The position numbers were made by a program, and so were the translations under genes. Below are positions 29,301-60,000 of a stretch of DNA of 64,000 nt, piece after piece. Below the pieces are notes generated by a model that ran no database searches, was not told where the DNA came from, and saw only the letters and a program-made list of their open reading frames with translations. The stretch's first letter is position 1. Every line of letters starts with the position of its first letter. Source of the stretch: Mugil cephalus (lineage: Eukaryota; Chordata; Actinopteri; Mugiliformes; Mugilidae); the NCBI RefSeq assembly GCF_022458985.1, contig NC_061777.1:14039668-14103667 (forward strand), in the 5' to 3' direction.

Positions 29301-32300
29301 AAGGATTGCCATGGATGATCGTCTCCCCCTGGAAAGCCCAACTGTTGATCAGCTCCAAGTCCTCCTGACACCATCTGCAGTCATTTTAAATGAAGAACTT
29401 TGAAGCACAGCAAATCCTCTCAGGTCTTCTACCCGCCTCACTTAACTACTTCCCATAACACTGTTAAAAGGCTGTTTGTTCACTTAATGTTAATTGAGAT
29501 GCTCATTGTGATAATGCAATCTGATTTTGAAGCACTATATCCCACAGCAGCAGCATACTGACAATACATCCAAACATTTGTGTAAATGTTTGCGAAAAAA
29601 AAAAGATTTCAGCTAAAAAGATTCTACATCTCACATTTGCATATTTGCATATCTATAAAGACAGAAACAGATTTAAAAAATAGATTATAGACTGTATTAT
29701 GTTGCGGTTTCGTTTTTGTGAAACGATTTATACTGTATCAAGTACTATCTATACATGCTTCTTAGTTTGTAGACCTGCAATATTAAAATATTATTATCAA
29801 GCCTAAAGTTCTGTTTGTGCAAAACAGTGTCTCACAGCACCACCTGCACTTAAAACGAGGTCATTACCTGGCGGTGTGATCCCACTCTTTGAGAGGACAT
29901 GGGATTGCTCCGCTTGCACAGAGCAGAGCTGCAGCTACAGACACCGAGAAGGCCGCACTCGAGCCCAGTCCGGCGCCAGTCGGCAGCTCCGACCACACAG
30001 ACAGCGTCAGGCTGGGCAGCTCACTGAGAAAATAATCACAGAGACTGAGCTTCTATTTGTGTATGACTTAAATAGGGCATTATTACAGTTGTTTAACAGA
30101 TTACTAGAGGTAATTGCAATAACTGATATGATAATTGTGTCAGGATAAAAGTATTTAATGTGCAGGCTACAGGCGTTTGCAACTGCATCCTCAAAATGAG
30201 AAACAACACACAACCTTTTAGCATTGCTATTCATTTACTAATATTAATAGATGGTTCTCATTTACTCAGTGGCTGTCTATTGTGGTGAAAGCATGAAACT
30301 ATCAAGTAAGTAACATGTCATCACAATTCATTATTTAGAATTATGTTAACTGGTGTAATTACGGTATAGAGGTTGTGTAATCCACACCCTAACGTATGCA
30401 ACAGAAACTTACTTGACACTTCTGTCAGCGTCTGTCAGGGAAGCTGCTTTCGGGCAGAAAGGAGAATACTCTAAACTAATTGTCCGGCTCTTCTCTCGGG
30501 GGGAAAACACATCCAGACTTGTTAAAGGGTGCAGAGGGGCTCAGTGCCAGACTCTCATTAGTGGCCATCCTGTCAGAACCCATCACCTCTCTGAGACACG
30601 CCAGCACTGTGTCAGTGCCGATTAAGCTTCCCAACAACCTGAAGCTAACGTTCCCCGCTTCCCATCCATCCTGTTCACAGCTGCTGGAGCTGCTAAGACT
30701 AACACCCAACCTTTCTGACTCTCCCTCTCTTTGCCATCTTCATTTAGAAGAGGAGGGTTTTCTTTTTATTTTTTTTTTAACAGAACGTGATAGACATAAG
30801 CTGAACTATAGAGAATATCATATATTATCAATGAAGGTGTCTCAGTGCAGACAGGAGCAGAAGTCATTGTGTGGAAAAAAATGTAATGTAAAGCAAGTAA
30901 CCCCACTATGATATAATTTAGTACATATACTATGCTACACAAGATAAACAGCACAGATTTTCCTGATTTAATATTAACTATGTTGTTGTAGCACACAAAT
31001 GTTAAATGTGGGTCAAACATGCGGTGACTTTTCCACGAGGTAGAGAAATTTTGTCATTCTACAGCTGCACACTTTGCCTGCAACACCTACAGGTAGAGAA
31101 AGTAATAGCTCTTGCCATTTTAAGTTGCACCACCTCCAGGTAACAAGTGTTGCTTTTCGGCTTTCAATTAATTTCATTTTTGTTTAAGTTTGTGTCTTTT
31201 ATTTAATGATTAATTGTTAATAGAAATGACTCATTACACTATTTCACATAACCAGTGCATTTTTAAAAAAAAACTTTTGATGGGATTTAACTGTGAGACA
31301 CTCTCAGATCTGATGTGGTCCCCCTTGTAGCTACTGATCTGAAACAGGTGGCACAGCAGTTTTGGAGTCGAGTAATATTTAATGGCCCTGGTTTCTGGAT
31401 TGCTTTACATATATATATCTGTAATTTGGGTTTTGTGCTCATCTGAAAACTGTCTCACCTTGACCCGAACAGCGAGACGTAGATGTAAAAGAAGGCTATG
31501 AGGGCCATTTTGGAAGGATCCAAGTTTCCATTGGTTGCACCAACAAATTCACGCAGTTTCCTCACAAGTTCAGCATCCAGACGTTGCACCTCGTCCCTCT
31601 TACCTATTGACATATCACAGCAATACACACTTTAGTATGTAGGCAGGTGTATAAAATAAGGAGTAGTGTTTATTAAGAATTGCCCAGTGAGGTAGTAATT
31701 CATTCATATGACAAAAAGATCAAAGTTTGACACCAACATAACATCCTGGCGTGTTTAAGACAGTACAAGGGGATTCGTGGCTGCAGCAAAACTCCAGAAA
31801 CTCATAACTTGAATAGTGTTGCAGTCAAGTCTTCTCATTGTAGTGGCAATGTCTGCGTTGACAAAGCCTATATAGTACGTTCGTCACCCACCTATGTCAC
31901 ATCCCCACACTCACTCAACCATCCTAACCTTATTTTCCTAGCATACATTTGACTGTAACTAGTGACTGCACGTGCAATTGCTGCAGTTGATAAATGAATT
32001 AATAACAAGTCAAAATATTTGCATGCCGAAGAAAAAAGGGGGTGAAACCAGAGCCCAGTGCAACCAGTGCTGAATTGTCACTTACCACAGGAAGAAGGGA
32101 CAAGCTGTTTGAGATCAGACAGCTCGCAGCTGAAGAATGTGTCAATATTGGGGAGGTTGATGCAAACTTTGCCAGAAGTGGTGGCCTTCAGCCGCAAATA
32201 TGTCCTCAGGTTCAAACTCACAGCGAGAGCCACCTGCAAGGAAAAGCCACAACAGAACAAGCAAAGGATCAATAAAAGATCCCTTTTTGACATATAAAAC

Positions 32301-32613
32301 TTAACTGGTGTACGTTTATCGATGCTACTACAAATTTGAACGTGCTTTCCTTATAATGTAATATGCATCAACTATCTGTAGAGCAGTGTGAGGAAATGAG
32401 GAGAAAATACAGATTCTTGGAGGGAAGTATGAGGAGTCTCGTTAGTCCACAAACCAGTATCATATTCACGCTTTTGCTGACATAATAGTTGATGCACCAA
32501 TTTCATAGATTATAATAGTCATCCTCATAGATTACCTTTCCGTGAACAACTGCGTGCTCTCCGTGGAGAATCGCCTTCCCAGGAGCAGACACGAACAAGT
32601 CCTTAACGTACAT
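26338..32613 (-). CDS. mvk: Mevalonate kinase (MVK), 10 coding exons, 397 aa
   Basis: Phosphorylates mevalonate with ATP to 5-phosphomevalonate, an early step of sterol and isoprenoid synthesis (cytosol/peroxisome). Coding exons in transcript order: 32613-32536, 32233-32086, 31603-31459, 30023-29868, 29374-29271, 29106-29061, 28897-28807, 28391-28272, 28130-27977, 26489-26338. All junctions are GT-AG with compatible phases, and the sum is 1194 nt. The GHMP kinase signatures are complete: N-terminal [17 protein letters not shown] with Lys13, the ATP loop GAGLGSSAA at 140-148 with Ser146, Glu193, Asp204 in GVDNAV, and C-terminal [15 protein letters not shown]. Active-site numbering equals the human enzyme (396 aa), so an active kinase is expected. 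The ATG opens exon 1 in [13 protein letters not shown]. The gene is divergent from mmab; the last intron (26490-27976) is the longest. Confidence 0.97.
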
Positions 32614-33127
32614 TTCTGTAAGTTTCCAAAGTATAAACTGTGTGCAGCGCTGGACACCTGGACACCTGGACACCTTCGACTTTAACTTTTCACTGACAGT
32701 ATTACTGTTAGCTAGCTTATCTAATGTTAATCCGCTGAACCTGCAACGAGCAGTCGACAGTCCGCGCCCGCAACTCTGTGCTTTTTCACAAACGAACGAT
32801 AAATATCAGGAGTTTAAAAAAACATTTTTATAATCAAACAAGAAAGAGATGCCTTCAGAACAAACTCTCCTCAATGTAGCGCGTTAAAAACACAGCTGAC
32901 ACACAGGACGAGTGACGAACCCAGTTGTGACTTCCGCTGTCCAATCAGCGTCGCAGCTGGTTGAATATATTTTCTTCTGACCAATCAGCGTCCTGCATTC
33001 GCTCATCGCCTGGTGAGTTGACCAATCATGCCATGAAAACGAAACGCCCCTTAAGTACGGGCGCCACAGAGGGACAAACTAAAACTCAGCGCGTTGCTCA
33101 CCTTTAGCTGCCATCCTGTAGCTAAAC
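32614..33127. promoter_or_regulatory. Shared bidirectional promoter of mvk and mmab with three CCAAT boxes
   Basis: The two ATG codons are 514 bases apart, head to head. CCAAT boxes lie at 32941-32945, 32981-32985 and 33022-33026, all on the plus strand and 40-41 bases apart. The first two share the 12-mer CCAATCAGCGTC. Between boxes 2 and 3, CTGGTGAG (33010-33017, reverse CTCACCAG) is a weak match to a sterol response element. In mammals MVK and MMAB share a promoter controlled by SREBP-2, and NF-Y sites next to SREs are typical of that class. The arrangement is seen; the sterol control is inferred. Three tandem copies of ctggacac lie at 32650-32673, close to the mvk start. Confidence 0.75.
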
Positions 33128-34596
33128 ATGACATCGTTTATCATCAAGCCTGCGCCCCTACGTTGTTTTGTGCGTTCATGCAGGTTTATAAGTGAGCATC
33201 GGACAAAGACGCCAGTGTGTTCAGTCAGAAGGTATTCGTATATCTCCGTTGTCTGTGAAAGTACATGTGGGAAGTGTTTATGTAGCTGTCCGTGTGATGT
33301 TACACAACTGCTGTCTTTGCTAGTCTGGAAGCTGGATACCTTAAAAATAAAGAATGTTTTAGCACCGGAGACAGTTTGCTATTGTTGGCAAAACAAAACT
33401 TTAATAAAGACTCCTTTAGTTTTATCAAAATCTTTTCATTTTTTTTCTTTTACCTCCAACAGTTATGTCACTGAAAGAGGAAACATGCCCAAAATCTACA
33501 CCAAAACTGGAGATAAAGGTTAGTTATCAAGCTCATAAGTAATATGTGAGTATAAATTGCATCCTAAAAAGCTGTTTTAATTCTTGCTGTACAGGTTTCT
33601 CAAGCACATTTACAGGAGAAAGGAGGCCGAAGGAGGATCACATTTTTGAAGCCTTAGGAAACACAGACGAACTGTCATCCTCTATAGGGTAAAACGTCTA
33701 GTATTTTAAAATAATCTGGCTCACTTAAAGGTTAAATCTTGATTTGCTTTACAGATTGGCCAGAGAATTCTGCCTCGACAAAGGCCACACGTTCACACAT
33801 CAGCTGGACAAGGTTTGATTTTCATGTCGCACTTATTAGCGTACCTCAGTCCTGACACTTTACAGTCACTCAAGATTGTTTTTTATTTTTTATTGCAGAT
33901 ACAGTGCATTTTACAAGATGTGGGCTCCAATATTGCTACTCCCAGATCATCTGCAAGAGAAAGCCATAGAAGTATGCACATGCTAGCAAATAAAGTGTTT
34001 GTTTTTCCCCGGTGATCAAAGACAAAACTGTCCTTTCCCATCTGTCTTTTCAAGCAAGAACTAAATTTACTGCAAAGCCAATTGAAGAACTGGAAACCTG
34101 GATTGATAACTTTACTGAAGAACTCCCTCCTCTGACCAACTTCATTTTACCAGTAAGCTCATTTGTACTTCTGTGCCCCTTATTCTTTCGAGATTTCAGG
34201 TTTTCACAGTTACACTTTGTTTTCGCAGTCGGGTGGGAAGAGTAGCGCAGCTTTACACTTAGCTCGGACAATCTGTCGGAGAGCAGAACGCAGGTAAGTT
34301 TCAGCCCGTGTCCAGAATCATTGCTTTGTTCCACTGGTACATCTGGACAACTCTTCATTCTTGTTACAGTGTTGCTCCCATTGTGCGCTCAGGGGAGGCG
34401 GATCCAGATGTTGCCAAGTTCTTGAACAGGTCAGTGTTGCACTTTAAAGCGAATACGAGAAGATAGTTTTTTCCACCACACACCTGAAAGTGTCCTTATA
34501 TTTTCACTCAGACTGAGCGACTACCTGTTCACCGTAGCGAGATATGCAGCAATGAAAGAAGGCAACGAGGAGACAATCTACAAGAGACCTGAATGA
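33128..34596 (+). CDS. mmab: Cob(I)yrinic acid a,c-diamide adenosyltransferase, mitochondrial (MMAB), 9 exons, 230 aa
   Basis: Transfers the 5'-deoxyadenosyl group of ATP to cob(I)alamin, making adenosylcobalamin for methylmalonyl-CoA mutase in the mitochondrion. Coding exons: 33128-33231, 33463-33518, 33595-33688, 33755-33812, 33899-33971, 34055-34152, 34229-34293, 34370-34429, 34512-34596. Phases agree and the total is 693 nt. The first 40 or so residues are rich in Arg, Ser and aromatics with few acids, fitting a mitochondrial presequence. The PduO-type fold follows: [10 protein letters not shown] at the ATP site, TGERRPK, then ICRRAERS, and C-terminal [20 protein letters not shown]. It is slightly shorter than human MMAB (250 aa), the difference lying mostly in the divergent N-terminus. 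It runs divergently from mvk and tail to tail with the ALDH3-like gene. Confidence 0.97.
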
Positions 34597-34989: not shown

Positions 34990-34995
34990 TTTATT
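34990..34995 (-). terminator. Polyadenylation signal of the ALDH3-like gene
   Basis: AATAAA on the minus strand, only about 35 bases beyond the stop codon at 35030-35032, so the 3' UTR would be very short. Confidence 0.5.
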
Positions 34996-35029: not shown

Positions 35030-38000
35030 TCACAGGATCTGGCACCAGCCCTGGCTCTTCTGGGACAGGGTACTGGCCCATGTCATTAGAGACAGATTGC
35101 GGTCCTCATAAGGCGGATAGCGCAGATAGGTGACGCACTCAAACCGCGTACCTCGAAGCAAGCATGATTTCCTGTGGGAGAAGGTGTCGAAACTGCAGCG
35201 GCCATGGAAGGAACCCATTCCACTGGCACCTGGGAAAAGGGAAGAGGGGATCAATCGCAGGCAATACTGTTGGGACACTCTTTAACTCTGAAGCCATAGA
35301 CGTACCTACTCCACCAAAAGGCAGCGCCACCATCAGACTCTGCAGGATGCAGTCGTTGGAGCAAAAGCTTCCACTAGAGGTCTCGCTCATTAACCTCGAA
35401 ATGACCTGCATCGTCAGAGAGGCCAACATATGATCAGGATACACGCTGCCTAACCCACACATGTAAATGAATACACTTGAAATTTATATGATGTACCTTA
35501 GTGTTGCTGGAATATGCATACACACAGAGGGGTTTCTCTTGCTTATTAATAAAGGTAATTGCTTCATCAACACTGTTTACAGTCAAAACAGGAAGGACTG
35601 GGCCAAAAACCTCATGTTGCATGATGGGGTCCGATTCTGACACCTCTGTCAAAATTGTTGGGGCTTCCGACAGAACAAAAATGAATGAGTACCACAAAGA
35701 TTAGATATGATTCACATATCGGTTGGTGTCTTCAGAATTCACTATCAAATGTTTTTACCTATATACTTCTCTGCTTCTATCACTTGCCCACCCACGGATA
35801 CTTTTCCACATCGCCACAGTATGTCTTTCATGCGGTTGAAGATCTCCAGATTGACCATGCGCCCAAAGCTGCGGGACTCTCTGGGATCGGATCCATAGAA
35901 CTGCATCAGACAGCACTTCAGGGCCTGCACCAGCCGTGCTTTGACATCCGCGTGGCATAAAATGTAATCGGGAGCCACCAAGCTCTGTCCGGCATTGTGG
36001 AAACGTGCCCAAGCAATGCGCTGCACGGCGGTGGCAATGTCACAGTCTTGGTCCACGTAACACGGGTTCTTTCCTCCTATAATCAGGGTGACGGGGGTGA
36101 CGCTGCGGGCTGCGGCCTGAGCAATTCTAATTCCATCTTCTCGGTTTCCTATGGGGCGACAGCCATGTTTAATGCATTTCTGGATCATTTATTTTATAGT
36201 CAAATGATGTCAAAGGTCGCGTTAGGTTTACCTGTAAAGAAAACGTGATCAAATTTGAGTTCCACCAGCTCAGGCAAATCATTCATGCCTGCAAGAATCA
36301 CATGGAAGCATTCCTTGAGGAAAATAAGAATTTTTCTTATCAGATAATTACTTTTCACTTCATCATCTTTTTGTTTCCCCCTCATTTGCCATCTGATTCC
36401 ATCTTTGCAGACTGGATGGTCCCACAATCTCAGATCCGAGTGTTTTAGCAAAGTCTAATCTCACTGAACAATGGCTCATTTGAGTTTTTGCTCATTTGAG
36501 TGCACTCTTTAAAAAAAAAAAAAGCCTACAACAAAGGTACCTGTTTAAGAATCTTTATACAGATGAGTCATTAAACTACTCTGCTTAGACTGCAGACATT
36601 TTTGCTTTGACAGCAGTGAACAAAACCATATTCTTCTCCTATATTACCTCAGATGATCCAGCGCACCTATGGCAACAAATTATGTCAATTTTGTCATGAA
36701 AGCCACACTTGAGATATCAACACACTGTAAATTGTTTAAACTAAAGAGAGATTAGCTAATCAGCCCTCTATGCCAACGTACTCACATTATCCAAGTAGTA
36801 GGGAACAAGACGATGGAGGAGCTCCGCTGTGTGGACAGTGAACTCAGAGGGGCTGATAATTGCACAATTTCCTGCACAGATAAATAAAAGCTCATCAGTG
36901 GCTCTAAAATAATCTATAAACCTGTGTTTCTGAGAACTAAATGATTGCTTTACCTGCTGCAATGGCTCCAACCAGTGGCACCAGACACATTTGGATAGGA
37001 CTACACCAGGTCCCCATGATAAACACCACCCCCAGCGGCTCACTGATCACCAGACACTCATCCAACGTGGTGGACTACACCAACCATGGTGACATGTGAA
37101 ACAAAATACAAGCAAAGGCTGGTAGAGTTCTAACCAGGACACGGTATTGCATAGAGAAAAAGACATCAGCCCGCTGTATTCTCGCGAAAACCACAAGGCC
37201 ACTTAACTTTTAATCTGCTTTGTTGCTCTCAGCACAATACATTTCTTTGTAGCAGCGAGATGGAATGCGCTTTCCGAAAGGTTAAATAAGTCATCAGTAA
37301 TCCTAATAATATTATTAAGAAAATGGTTTTTATGAAAAAGGGCATTACACACACACACACACACACACACCAGTCTCACCAGGTTTCTTTCCACGGGCTG
37401 CGGTTGCATCCACTTCTTTAGGTTGGTGATGGCGTAAAGAGCCTCATTCTTGACCACAATCAGCTCAGACATAACTGTTTCAAACCGTGGCTGATTGAAA
37501 GCATGGGGTGCAGACAAATAAACCAAGAAAAAAAAAATTAACATTTGCACCATCATGTTAAAGAAAGGCAACTGGACTTGTAGAATATCTTGAGGATGTT
37601 TTGCCACTCGTCCGAGTAGCCACAATTGCAGAAGCTACTCGGATGAAGAAATTCGACAAGCCCAGTTAGCTTTCTTTAAACACCTTTTAGATTACCACGA
37701 CCTGGATGACTGAGAACCTTCACAGACATTATGTTAGTTCTCACAGTTAAAAACATGGCTCTACTGCAGCAAACATAAACACAGGAGGAGACAGCATCCA
37801 GTGTCACCTTGTGGAGGTCCCTCCCAAGAGCATCCACAAAGTCGCACTCATGTTCCTCCAGCATCCGCACCACAGCCTCCAGCTGAGCTAGTCTGATGTT
37901 CTCCTTGAGGGTGCGTCCAGCTTGAAAGGCAACTCTGGACCTCCTCAGAAGGTCCTCGCACTCCACAGGGTATGTCTTCAAACAAGGCTCGCCCAGCCTG

Positions 38001-38543
38001 GTCCTAGAACAGTTGACTACTTTTAACCCCGCACTGCTTTCAAACACATGTTCAGTCCATTTCTCATCACTTTACCTTCTGCATGTTAACCGGCCATTCC
38101 TCTGACAAACAGAGCATGCCCTTATTTTTCCACTCATGTTTCTTCAAGTCAACAAATCTCCAGTGTTGGCCTTTCTGAATGGAGCAGTGTGGAGTTAAGC
38201 CTATGCACCATGCACCTGCTAGGTTAAAACCCGACTGGCTGGGAGGATAGTGGAAAATCCTAGTGACTCCAGTCAGCTGATTCACATAAAACTAAGAAAG
38301 CTGGAGTCTAATGTAGCACTACAAGGCTAGAGGCCAGCAGAGGTGAGCGAAGGACAGCAGACGTAGCTCATTTATTTGCAGAAAGCAACTTCTAAAACCG
38401 TTACATAAAATTCCTGATGATGCAAGTTCAGCTCTATTCAGTGCCAAAAAGAAGAAAAAAAACAATACATAAACATGTTGAACCACTTACCTCCGCAGCG
38501 CTTTGAACCATCGGGTGGGCGAAGGACTCGGTGGATTGCTCAT
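35030..38543 (-). CDS. ALDH3-family protein (ALDH3B/3D-like) lacking all three catalytic residues; probable pseudoenzyme, 10 exons, 501 aa
   Basis: Coding exons in transcript order: 38543-38491, 38003-37808, 37490-37380, 37074-36954, 36871-36786, 36313-36232, 36148-35759, 35663-35497, 35405-35306, 35229-35030 (1506 nt, phases consistent, no stops). It aligns end to end with class 3 aldehyde dehydrogenases: [48 protein letters not shown] and LPFGGVGASGMG are recognisable. Key residues are changed. The WNYP oxyanion Asn is Cys144 (TWCSP), the LELGG general-base Glu is Ile239 (TLIIGG), and the GQTC nucleophile is Leu273 (GQSL). The cofactor Lys of KPSE is Ser167. Spacing of the three positions (95 and 34 residues) equals ALDH3A1, so alignment error is unlikely. 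The protein ends in CQIL, a CAAX box favouring geranylgeranylation. Oxidation of aldehydes is therefore doubtful. The family is certain; the exact orthologue (3B1 or the fish 3D1 type) is not. Confidence 0.93.
37347..37370. repeat. (AC)12 microsatellite beside a splice donor
   Basis: On the gene strand it reads as a GT repeat starting 10 bases after the donor of the third ALDH3-like coding exon (boundary 37379/37380). Confidence 0.9.
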
Positions 38544-57000: not shown

Positions 57001-60000
57001 CCCCAGACCTACACAATATTAGGAATGTGGTCATAATGTTATGCTTGATCGATGTATACTATCATAGAAATACCTCTTCAGGAAAACATCATATTTGCGT
57101 CTGTAAGCGAAACCAGCTCGTCTGACTCTGAGGTGCTCCATCAGGCCCAGGTACTTCACCTGGTGCCTGATCAGTGCTTCATCAAACTGACCTGCGATTG
57201 TGCGACAGACGCAGGCGTCGTTTAGTCACATTCAAACATCTCCATCTCGTTAACCTTCTGTCCATTAGCGTGCGTACCTGGCTGCTTGGACTCATTCGAT
57301 TTTAGGCAGCGTATATACCAGGCCTCCTTAGCCATGAGGATCTCTGTCAGCTTCAGGAGGCTGCTCTTAAACTGAGTCGCCACCTACAGACACAGCATGA
57401 GGGTCATAATCCCCAACAGGTCACCTGTCGGATACATATGGCTTGATGGTGACACAGTCACACGCACAGATAAAACTCTGGAAGAACTTACTGTTGCTGG
57501 TCTTCTCTTACTGTCTTGAACCATGGTGGAGAAGCACTCTCTGACTATGGCATTTTTAGACTGACACATGAGCTATGAGAAGGTGGGCATCTATACATTA
57601 ACACACAATAACTCTCCTCAAATAGTTAGAATTTGTCTCAAGTGATATTGACACTTACATCTTTTAGGTTTCTGTACAACAGGTCATTATTTTTGTCCAG
57701 GAAACCTAAAGTGTCACAAAAAAATAAATAAATGAATAAAATCAACTCAGTGTCACAGATTTGTCAGTTTCAAATAAAAACTTATTTGAGTAACAGGGCC
57801 TGAGACTGTGGTTCCTTTTACCCACGACACAGTAGGTGACCTCCCCGGCATAATGCAAGAGACGGAAATCTCCCCTCTCCAGAGTCTTACGTGTCATTTT
57901 GTCAGCCAGTTTGTGCCTGCAGTCAAAGAGGTGGAGAGAGACAGGGGGATGAAGAGTGAGAGGCTTTATGGATGAGCTCTAATCCTCCGTCTCTGTCGAC
58001 TCGCTCACAGGACACTGGTAGCAGGAGCAGTGGTGAAAGCAGGCGGTGTCGTAAAGCTTTTAGCTGCACAGTATCATTTAGTCGGACGGCATATTTAATT
58101 GGATCAACGTCTTAATTACAAAATGTGGGAATAATAATGATCTTGAAAGGCACATGTGATTAATTGACAAATTACTACTAAAATTTTTAAACATGTTACT
58201 TTAAAAAAAATAAATAATAATCTTTCTGTGTGATTTAAGGATTTAACTCACGTGACAAAATGGGGGTGATTCCCCATCTTTTCCTCCAGTCTCTCCAGGA
58301 AAGTGAGATCTGTGGCCTCTCCTGGCCTGAGGCATTCCTCGTCCTGCAGTATCGTATCGTAAGCATGTGATAAATCATAAGCACTATTAATGGGTTTTTG
58401 TTCTTAATAAATGGATGTCCCTATGCATACACACCAGTATCGATATGATTCCTCTGTGTTTCTCCTCAACCAAGTCACAGATGATCTTGTTGTTGAAGAA
58501 CTGAACCGGCTCCCACTGGAGAAAAAGGTTACGTGAGTTAAACAGCCAGCGATTTGTCATTTCCACCCAGGTTTATTTGGGGTTACCTCAATATCCTCTG
58601 CTTCGTATTCCTCCTGCTCAGCTTTGAGTGTGAGCTGGATAAAAAGCTGCTGCAGCTTCTCGTTGCAGTAGTTTATACAGAACTGCTCAAAACTGAAGGA
58701 AAGAGTCAAGACAAATGCACTCATTTTAATATAGTAGCCAATAAGGGGATTCAGACACCCTTAATAAAAGCAGTGTGAGGGTATAAGAATTTTATATTGC
58801 CACCCACCTGTTTACATAGAAAACCTCAAATCCATATATATCCAAAAGCCCTATAACTGTCTTAGGTGAAGGGTCCTAAAAGCAAACAAACAAACAAAAA
58901 CAGTAGTTACACATCTTCACAGCCTGGAAGCAGTCATATGTCACTTCTGTACTCACCATGTTCTCCATGGACTCGTTGATCCTGTTGACGAGCCAGGTGA
59001 AAGTCAGTCCGTAGATGGCTTTGGCCAGGGCGTCTCTCGCATAGATGGCGTGATCAACTGTGAATGGGCTGAGGACCTTTAACAACAGAACGCAAATTTT
59101 AAACAGAAATAGAAAGAAATGGAAAATAATTGTTATTTCAGCTATGGTTTGACATGCGTGAACCTGTTCTTTTTTGGCTTCAATCTTCCTGAATGTGAGT
59201 CCCTCATGGAGCCTGTGAGCATCCACACCTAGTAGCTGCAAAGAAAGAGAACATGAGGTGACATGTGATAACATGATAGCTAAAGAAAGAAAATACAATA
59301 ATAATAGTAATAGATTTCTTACATTGGAGACCCAGTCCAGCTCTCCGTTGTTATTCAGATGGGCATGGCCTTTACTGTCAGAGTCAAACTGAAAGTTCCC
59401 CAGGTGGAGAACACTTGCAACAACCTCAAGCAAGTGCTGCAGAGAATTATCATTTGAGTATTACTGCAAACCTTGCAAGCAAGAATTATTGGTGTAAATC
59501 AGGGCATCTGCAATGGCGTGCAACTCACATTTGTGTTAATCTCATCAAAGTTGATGACTTGCAGTGCATTTTTGACTGTTTTCCAGTCATTTCTGTCATT
59601 AATGGAAGACACAATGGCACACTCCCCCTGCAAGAAACAATACACACACACAAAAAGCAAATCACCTCTGCTACTTCCTTTTGATTTTTTTTTTCTTTTT
59701 ATTTTTTTTTTACTTGAAATAATATGACCAAGCAGCTCGTGCCTTTCTGGGTGGAGTTTGCATGTTCTCCCTGTGTTCGCGTGGGTTCTCTCCGGGTACT
59801 CAGGCTTCCTCCCACCTCCAAAGACGTGCTCGTTAGGCTAATTGGTGACTCTAAATTGACCCTAGGTGTGAGTGTGACAGTGAATGGTTGTTTGTCTCTG
59901 TGTTAGCCCTGTGATAGGCTGGCGACCTGTCCAGGGTGTACCCTGCCTATCGCCCGATGCCAGCTGGGATAGGCTCCAGCAACCCCCCGCGACCCTGAGG

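Follow-up and report, generated by a model that had tools for sequence, protein, structure and literature searches.

ALDH pseudoenzymes are few, and the precedents, ALDH16A1 and cephalopod omega-crystallin, both belong to other ALDH families than the gene described here. ALDH16A1, named as the human ALDH pseudoenzyme in a 2023 review, resembles this gene's product in having an ALDH-fold without the whole triad, and it is thought to act via protein partners (PMC10650815, excerpt). Since ALDH16A1 lies in another ALDH family, we infer a separate loss. Cephalopod omega-crystallin, compared here by description, is a mollusc lens and skin protein and an ALDH homologue termed enzymatically inactive (PMC6397165, excerpt); a further paper lists it as identical to an ALDH, with class 1/2 cited for scallop (PMC10650815, excerpt). 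Regarding the ALDH3 family itself, ALDH3B1 and ALDH3B2 are reported to be prenylated (PMC8262314, excerpt), and no word beginning with 'prenyl' occurs in the ALDH review PMC10650815. Zebrafish Aldh3b1 is reported to have a conserved active site and to be active, and knocking it out reduces total ALDH activity (PMC13079744, excerpt). ALDH3A1 and ALDH3A2 represent the nearest solved structures, with 46–47% identity to the protein studied here; ALDH3A2 (FALDH) is tail-anchored (PMC8919083, excerpt), whereas our protein is CaaX-ended.

The gene in question is an ALDH3 gene adjoining mmab and lies in the window, i.e., the whole 64-kb stretch of DNA that was analyzed, on contig C8 (14039668–14103667); we refer to it as the window gene. 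It shares with ALDH3B1/ALDH3B2 a common clade and a CaaX-type end, together with the exon pattern of a paralogue on contig C20. However, its protein is devoid of the catalytic Asn, Glu, and Cys and of the cofactor Lys, and its N-terminus is 29 residues longer. Based on sequence comparisons, we consider it likely that this is a second ALDH3B-type gene of a fish, one that gave up aldehyde dehydrogenase function in the distant past and that selection has maintained as a pseudoenzyme ever since. The gene was rebuilt from the DNA as follows:

35030..38543, minus strand: whole window gene (manual model, spliced aligner, and Pfam Aldedh)
38491..38543, minus strand: exon 1, residues 1–17 and part of 18, with the start codon; the least certain exon
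37808..38003, minus strand: exon 2 (manual model; the spliced aligner supports the 3' boundary)
37380..37490, minus strand: exon 3, 111 nt (manual model and spliced aligner)
36954..37074, minus strand: exon 4, 121 nt, with Asn114 to Cys144 (GTWCSP) at the oxyanion-Asn position and Tyr115 to Ser145
36786..36871, minus strand: exon 5, 86 nt, with cofactor Lys137 to Ser167 (ISPSE)
36232..36313, minus strand: exon 6, 82 nt (manual model and spliced aligner)
35759..36148, minus strand: exon 7, 390 nt, with the cofactor loop GNREDG, general base Glu209 to Ile239, and nucleophile Cys243 to Leu273
35497..35663, minus strand: exon 8, 167 nt, with EVFGP kept (Glu333 equals Glu364) and Glu332 to His363
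35306..35405, minus strand: exon 9, 100 nt (manual model and spliced aligner)
35030..35229, minus strand: exon 10, with the Cys-Gln-Ile-Leu-stop end, a CaaX-type prenylation signal (the spliced aligner supports the 5' boundary)
34990..34995, minus strand: AATAAA hexamer of the polyadenylation type, about 35 nt downstream of the stop, a consensus match only

In this manual model, the ten coding exons (38543..35030) form a single open frame of 1506 nt including the stop, encoding 501 amino acids, and all nine introns are GT-AG with consistent phases. Stops, frameshifts, or broken splice sites amounted to zero across the 501 codons and nine introns. A sequence-only reading of the same DNA had described an uninterrupted 501-residue frame with an intact splice structure, and both points hold. 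The extent it gave, 35759..37074, does contain exons 7 to 4 but falls short of the coding gene, which spans 35030–38543. The boundaries of exons 2 to 10 were reproduced by a spliced protein-to-DNA aligner, except at the 5' and 3' termini, which a local alignment leaves free, using three references (human ALDH3A1, a provisional human ALDH3B1 sequence, and the C20 paralogue). Neither ALDH3B1 nor the C20 gene has an equivalent of exon 1, which provides the in-frame ATG; the open frame of exon 2 contains no ATG upstream of its homologous part. The 29 additional residues relative to ALDH3B1 and the C20 protein (38491–38543 and 37955–38003) arise via an extra first exon, and this N-terminal extension has no homology support, the start of the C20 gene falling within the equivalent of exon 2.

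The neighborhood agrees with the mmab-ube3b position proposed earlier: mmab, recognized by a cobalamin adenosyltransferase domain, lies downstream in convergent orientation, and upstream lies a gene with a HECT domain, as would fit ube3b. In addition, exons at 31426–33530 on the minus strand read as mevalonate kinase, head to head with the plus-strand mmab and possibly sharing a promoter with it; the name comes from reading the exons by eye, and a Pfam search with the partial mvk sequence had no hit. Beyond the HECT gene, a myosin head-domain match (58879–59460, minus strand; Pfam 50.7 bits) is part of a further gene. A tblastn search for further ALDH3 copies elsewhere in the 64-kb window with three ALDH3 queries returned chance-level matches only (E 0.26 or worse), and no second near-identical locus was present among the scored genome hits.

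To describe the active site, we use ALDH3A1 numbering; the roles of the oxyanion Asn, the cofactor Lys, and the GSTxVG loop are ones we take to apply to these positions from general ALDH knowledge. Asn114, Lys137, Glu209, and Cys243 of ALDH3A1 correspond to Cys144, Ser167, Ile239, and Leu273 in the window protein, the latter two in the contexts TLIIGG and GQSL. The losses of the triad and the cofactor Lys are as the sequence-only reading had stated them, as is the identity of the 95- and 34-residue spacings with those of ALDH3A1 (114/209/243). In the comparison set, the four key columns are invariant as N, K, E, and C in 88/88 ALDH3-type proteins (84/84 in a first set). This set comprises 80 bacterial loci, four references (PDB 3sza, PDB 10pq, human ALDH3A2, and human ALDH3B1, the last as a provisional sequence), and the remaining four ALDH3 genes of the genome under study, all of them termed catalytic in the sense that the key residues are present in the sequence. 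The bacterial rows, all 80 with bacterial titles, were taken from at least 580 relatives in bacterial and archaeal contigs and were baited with the peptide patterns GK[NS]PCY[VI]D and [PK][VI]MQ[EH]E[IV]F; columns inside these patterns (e.g., Lys213 and Glu332/333) may appear over-conserved, and the four key columns lie outside both.

Further changes surround the lost residues. The GSTxVG-type cofactor loop reads GNREDG, with Val191 changed to Asp221 at a position that is V, I, or L in 88/88 comparison proteins. Tyr115, which is Y or F in 88/88, is Ser145, and Glu332, which is E or D in 88/88, is His363. In addition, Leu210 is replaced by Ile, and Thr242 is replaced by Ser, a change also present in C20. 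The residues equivalent to Trp113, Pro116, Glu140, Gly187, Gly240, Gln241, Glu333, Phe335, Phe401, and His413 are unchanged, and a 15-residue C-terminal signature and, in line with the earlier reading, FGGVGASGMG and EVFGP are kept as well. The window protein lacks what defines a catalytic ALDH, the Asn/Glu/Cys triad plus cofactor Lys (C144, I239, L273, and S167 instead), and has the sequence profile of a pseudoenzyme, with catalytic residues lost and fold positions kept. By established ALDH chemistry, a protein without the nucleophile, the oxyanion Asn, the general base, and the cofactor Lys would not be expected to carry out NAD(P)-dependent oxidation. The roles of the catalytic Cys and Glu in ALDHs are described in PMC10650815 (excerpt).

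Assignment to the ALDH3 family, as proposed from the sequence alone, was borne out by the tree and the PDB hits and could be refined to ALDH3B-type. The protein matches Pfam Aldedh (PF00171) with 224.5 bits (E 2.6e-66; residues 33–457 on profile positions 31–460 of 461), and its top PDB hits are class 3 and fatty aldehyde dehydrogenases, which places it in ALDH3. In a maximum-likelihood tree limited to the first 22 bacterial rows out of 80, the vertebrate ALDH3 group was supported at 100/99 with the bacterial outgroup, and the window gene, C20, and human ALDH3B1 formed a clade at 99/94, although the program warned that the position of the long window row is uncertain and its residue composition deviant. 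An earlier tree, built with the first 30 bacterial rows out of 80 and without the fish paralogues, paired the window gene with ALDH3B1 at 99/94. The branching order within the trio was not settled by the AU test (p-AU 0.25 for window gene plus C20 and 0.13 for C20 plus human, neither rejected). The end branch of the window gene was the longest in the tree (1.23 vs 0.74 for C20 and 0.44 for ALDH3B1). At columns where the ALDH3A rows agree and ALDH3B1 differs, the window gene equals ALDH3A at 24, ALDH3B1 at 18, and neither at 39. Residues rare in bacteria (<10%) at columns separating ALDH3B1 from the three ALDH3A rows are shared with ALDH3B1 in nine cases and with ALDH3A in three.

Exon sizes point the same way. 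The pattern of the window gene (121/86/82/390/167/100) was compared within the same genome and corresponds to that of C20 (121/86/82/393/167/100), whereas three ALDH3A-type genes, which keep the four residues, show 86/209/118/142/167/100. Moreover, both ALDH3B-type proteins end in a CaaX-type motif, CQIL in the window protein and CSIM in C20. Judged by clade, exon pattern, and CaaX-type end, the window gene is ALDH3B-type. ALDH subfamily names require more than 60% identity; the window protein shows 48% to human ALDH3B1 (provisional sequence) and 47% to C20, and we therefore speak of an 'ALDH3B-type' protein and avoid the name ALDH3B. At the roughly 47% protein identity between the paralogues, saturation of their synonymous sites would be expected. 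Among NCBIfam models, no match above the curated cut-off was found in the best 25 of 40 families. We also considered the window gene as the orthologue of ALDH3D1, presumably the name of a zebrafish ALDH3 gene; 'ALDH3D1' did not occur in the open-licence literature searched.

Searching the genome (635 Mb, 24 contigs) with the window protein and ALDH3B1 revealed five ALDH3 loci, a count that is a lower bound: the window gene, the C20 paralogue, a tandem pair on C9, and a single gene on C15. The C20 paralogue retains all four key residues. The tandem C9 genes (16940000–16957000) are ALDH3A-type with the four residues intact, and the frame of the second continues beyond the aligned part into hydrophobic sequence. 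Weaker hits were obtained on C6 and C21; at C6 2342599–2343966, a near full-length ALDH-family match (profile 7–458 of 461) lies in a 549-codon stop-free frame that is apparently intronless. A weak hit on C3 was rejected as ALDH3, as it reads as an ALDH1-like gene. At the exon 3/4 junction of the C20 gene (10733298–10733933), no in-frame join with standard splice sites is available; a GT donor lies one nucleotide off, and the spliced aligner placed a 1-nt exon there, so that an assembly slip, an unusual splice site, or a real defect are all possible. ORFs read in the C20 flanks disclosed no telling gene for synteny. A scan of viral contigs with the C-terminal half of the window protein found no relatives.

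Loss of the active site could reflect selection for another role or decay. Seven of the 44 columns invariant in the 88 comparison rows are changed in the window gene, compared to a median of zero and a maximum of two losses when each of the 88 rows was left out in turn. The seven losses consist of the four key residues and three one-step conservative changes (Gly to Ala, Leu to Val, and Tyr to Phe); without the four key sites, the strictest-site losses are three in the window gene versus one in C20. The chance that all four key sites fall among seven losses in 44 is about 3e-4, a descriptive value worked by hand for sites chosen beforehand. At the nucleotide level, the four key codons require a minimum of 2, 2, 3, and 2 changes, i.e., at least nine in total.

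These losses have to be weighed against neutrality, for which the window CDS was simulated with substitutions only and no indels (400 runs per distance). At distances of 0.01, 0.1, and 0.7 per site, the neutral sequences accumulated 0.46, 4.5, and 17 stops, respectively, and at d = 0.1 they remained free of stops with a probability of 0.01. The probability that the four codons would change to this extent was 2e-17, 1e-8, and 0.008 at these three distances and reached 0.16 only at d = 2, values that are illustrative because the four codons were picked for being lost. With the same caveat on the choice of codons, no single neutral distance accounts for both the codon changes and the absent stops.

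Outside the key sites, 21 of 125 columns invariant in the eight vertebrate rows are changed in the window gene. The matching test gave 19 of 123 for the C20 paralogue and 2 to 6 of 106–110 for the other seven vertebrate rows, some of which have a close relative in the set. The 21 changes have a mean BLOSUM62 score of +0.52 vs −0.57 for random one-step nonsynonymous changes, and only 5 of 2000 draws scored as high. GC content at third codon positions is 0.596 vs 0.395 in the introns; it is 0.674–0.746 in the four other ALDH3 genes, making the window gene the lowest of the five. Because the changes elsewhere are conservative and similarly dense, the active site appears to have been released while the rest of the protein is constrained about as in C20, a yardstick that is itself unusually divergent and may be under relaxed constraint.

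The alternative that survives best is a unitary pseudogene in early decay, in which function was lost, substitutions fall anywhere, and the frame is still open for want of time. The long branch, the 7 of 44 family-invariant losses, and the low third-position GC would all suit it, and at d about 0.01, the age of a very young pseudogene, the frame would remain open with a probability of 0.6. At that age, however, the nine or more changes in the four codons, singled out beforehand, would almost never be reached, and the conservative changes at about the density of C20 as well as the nine intact introns and the CaaX end speak against it; we regard this explanation as unlikely. Tests within one genome thus support the preference for a selected pseudoenzyme over a decaying pseudogene already voiced in the sequence-only reading: neutral decay fits poorly in the simulation, and the conservative changes and the kept CaaX end are consistent with selection. 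Transcription may nevertheless have been lost recently, after a long life as a pseudoenzyme.

The protein might also be active otherwise, with the Cys144 thiol (codon TGT) at the oxyanion position and a pocket that traps or processes electrophiles without a cofactor. Trp143, Pro146, Gly270, Gln271, Glu364, and Phe366 still frame this pocket; however, the general base is Ile, the neighboring Tyr115 and Thr242 have changed as well, and other cysteines unshared with the references (C150 and C393) indicate that Cys144 may be incidental, so that we consider such chemistry quite unlikely. A structural, crystallin-like bulk protein has parallels in omega-crystallin, described as enzymatically inactive (PMC6397165, excerpt), and in ALDH3A1, a corneal crystallin (PMC10650815, excerpt), but a kept lipid-anchor motif would be odd for a soluble bulk protein, and this role seems improbable. 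An artefact of the assembly or of the gene model, or a restoration of the residues by an alternative exon, is a general possibility to which exon 1 without homology support and the odd C20 junction in the same assembly could add, but it is highly improbable given at least nine specific changes in four codons within well aligned exons, chance-level matches in the rest of the window, and the lack of a near-identical second locus among the scored hits.

Returning to a pseudoenzyme kept by selection, both the C-terminal signature and the CaaX-type end are retained, which points to a membrane-tethered dimer resembling that of ALDH3. The window protein would fold as an ALDH3-type dimer, is probably prenylated, judging from its C-terminal motif, and would be lipid-anchored through Cys498. 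Presumably unable to oxidize aldehydes with NAD(P), it would act by binding, as a membrane-tethered dimer partner or scaffold that pairs with itself or with a catalytic ALDH3B-type subunit. Such pairing would set the amount, the place, or the access to lipid aldehydes of the catalytic subunit, as pseudoenzymes regulate active homologues. By analogy, we tentatively put this forward as the most likely mechanism, though with less than even confidence. A more specific version, in which the prenylated dead subunit joins the living ALDH3B-type enzyme in a dimer at membranes to control lipid-aldehyde signalling, the Cys144 thiol serving as an electrophile sensor, is speculative and would be unlikely to hold in full.

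In the open-licence literature, with listings judged by title and the start of the abstract, we found neither a report of an ALDH3 pseudoenzyme nor one of a regulatory pseudo-dehydrogenase of the ALDH3 family. In zebrafish, loss of Aldh3b1 and its substrate 2-hexadecenal are tied to ocular neovascularization (PMC13079744, excerpt). The main interest of the present case is that a dead form and a form with catalytic residues coexist in one genome. If our interpretation is true, an ALDH3B-derived pseudoenzyme would offer a natural separation between what ALDH3B does through binding and at membranes and what it does as a catalyst.
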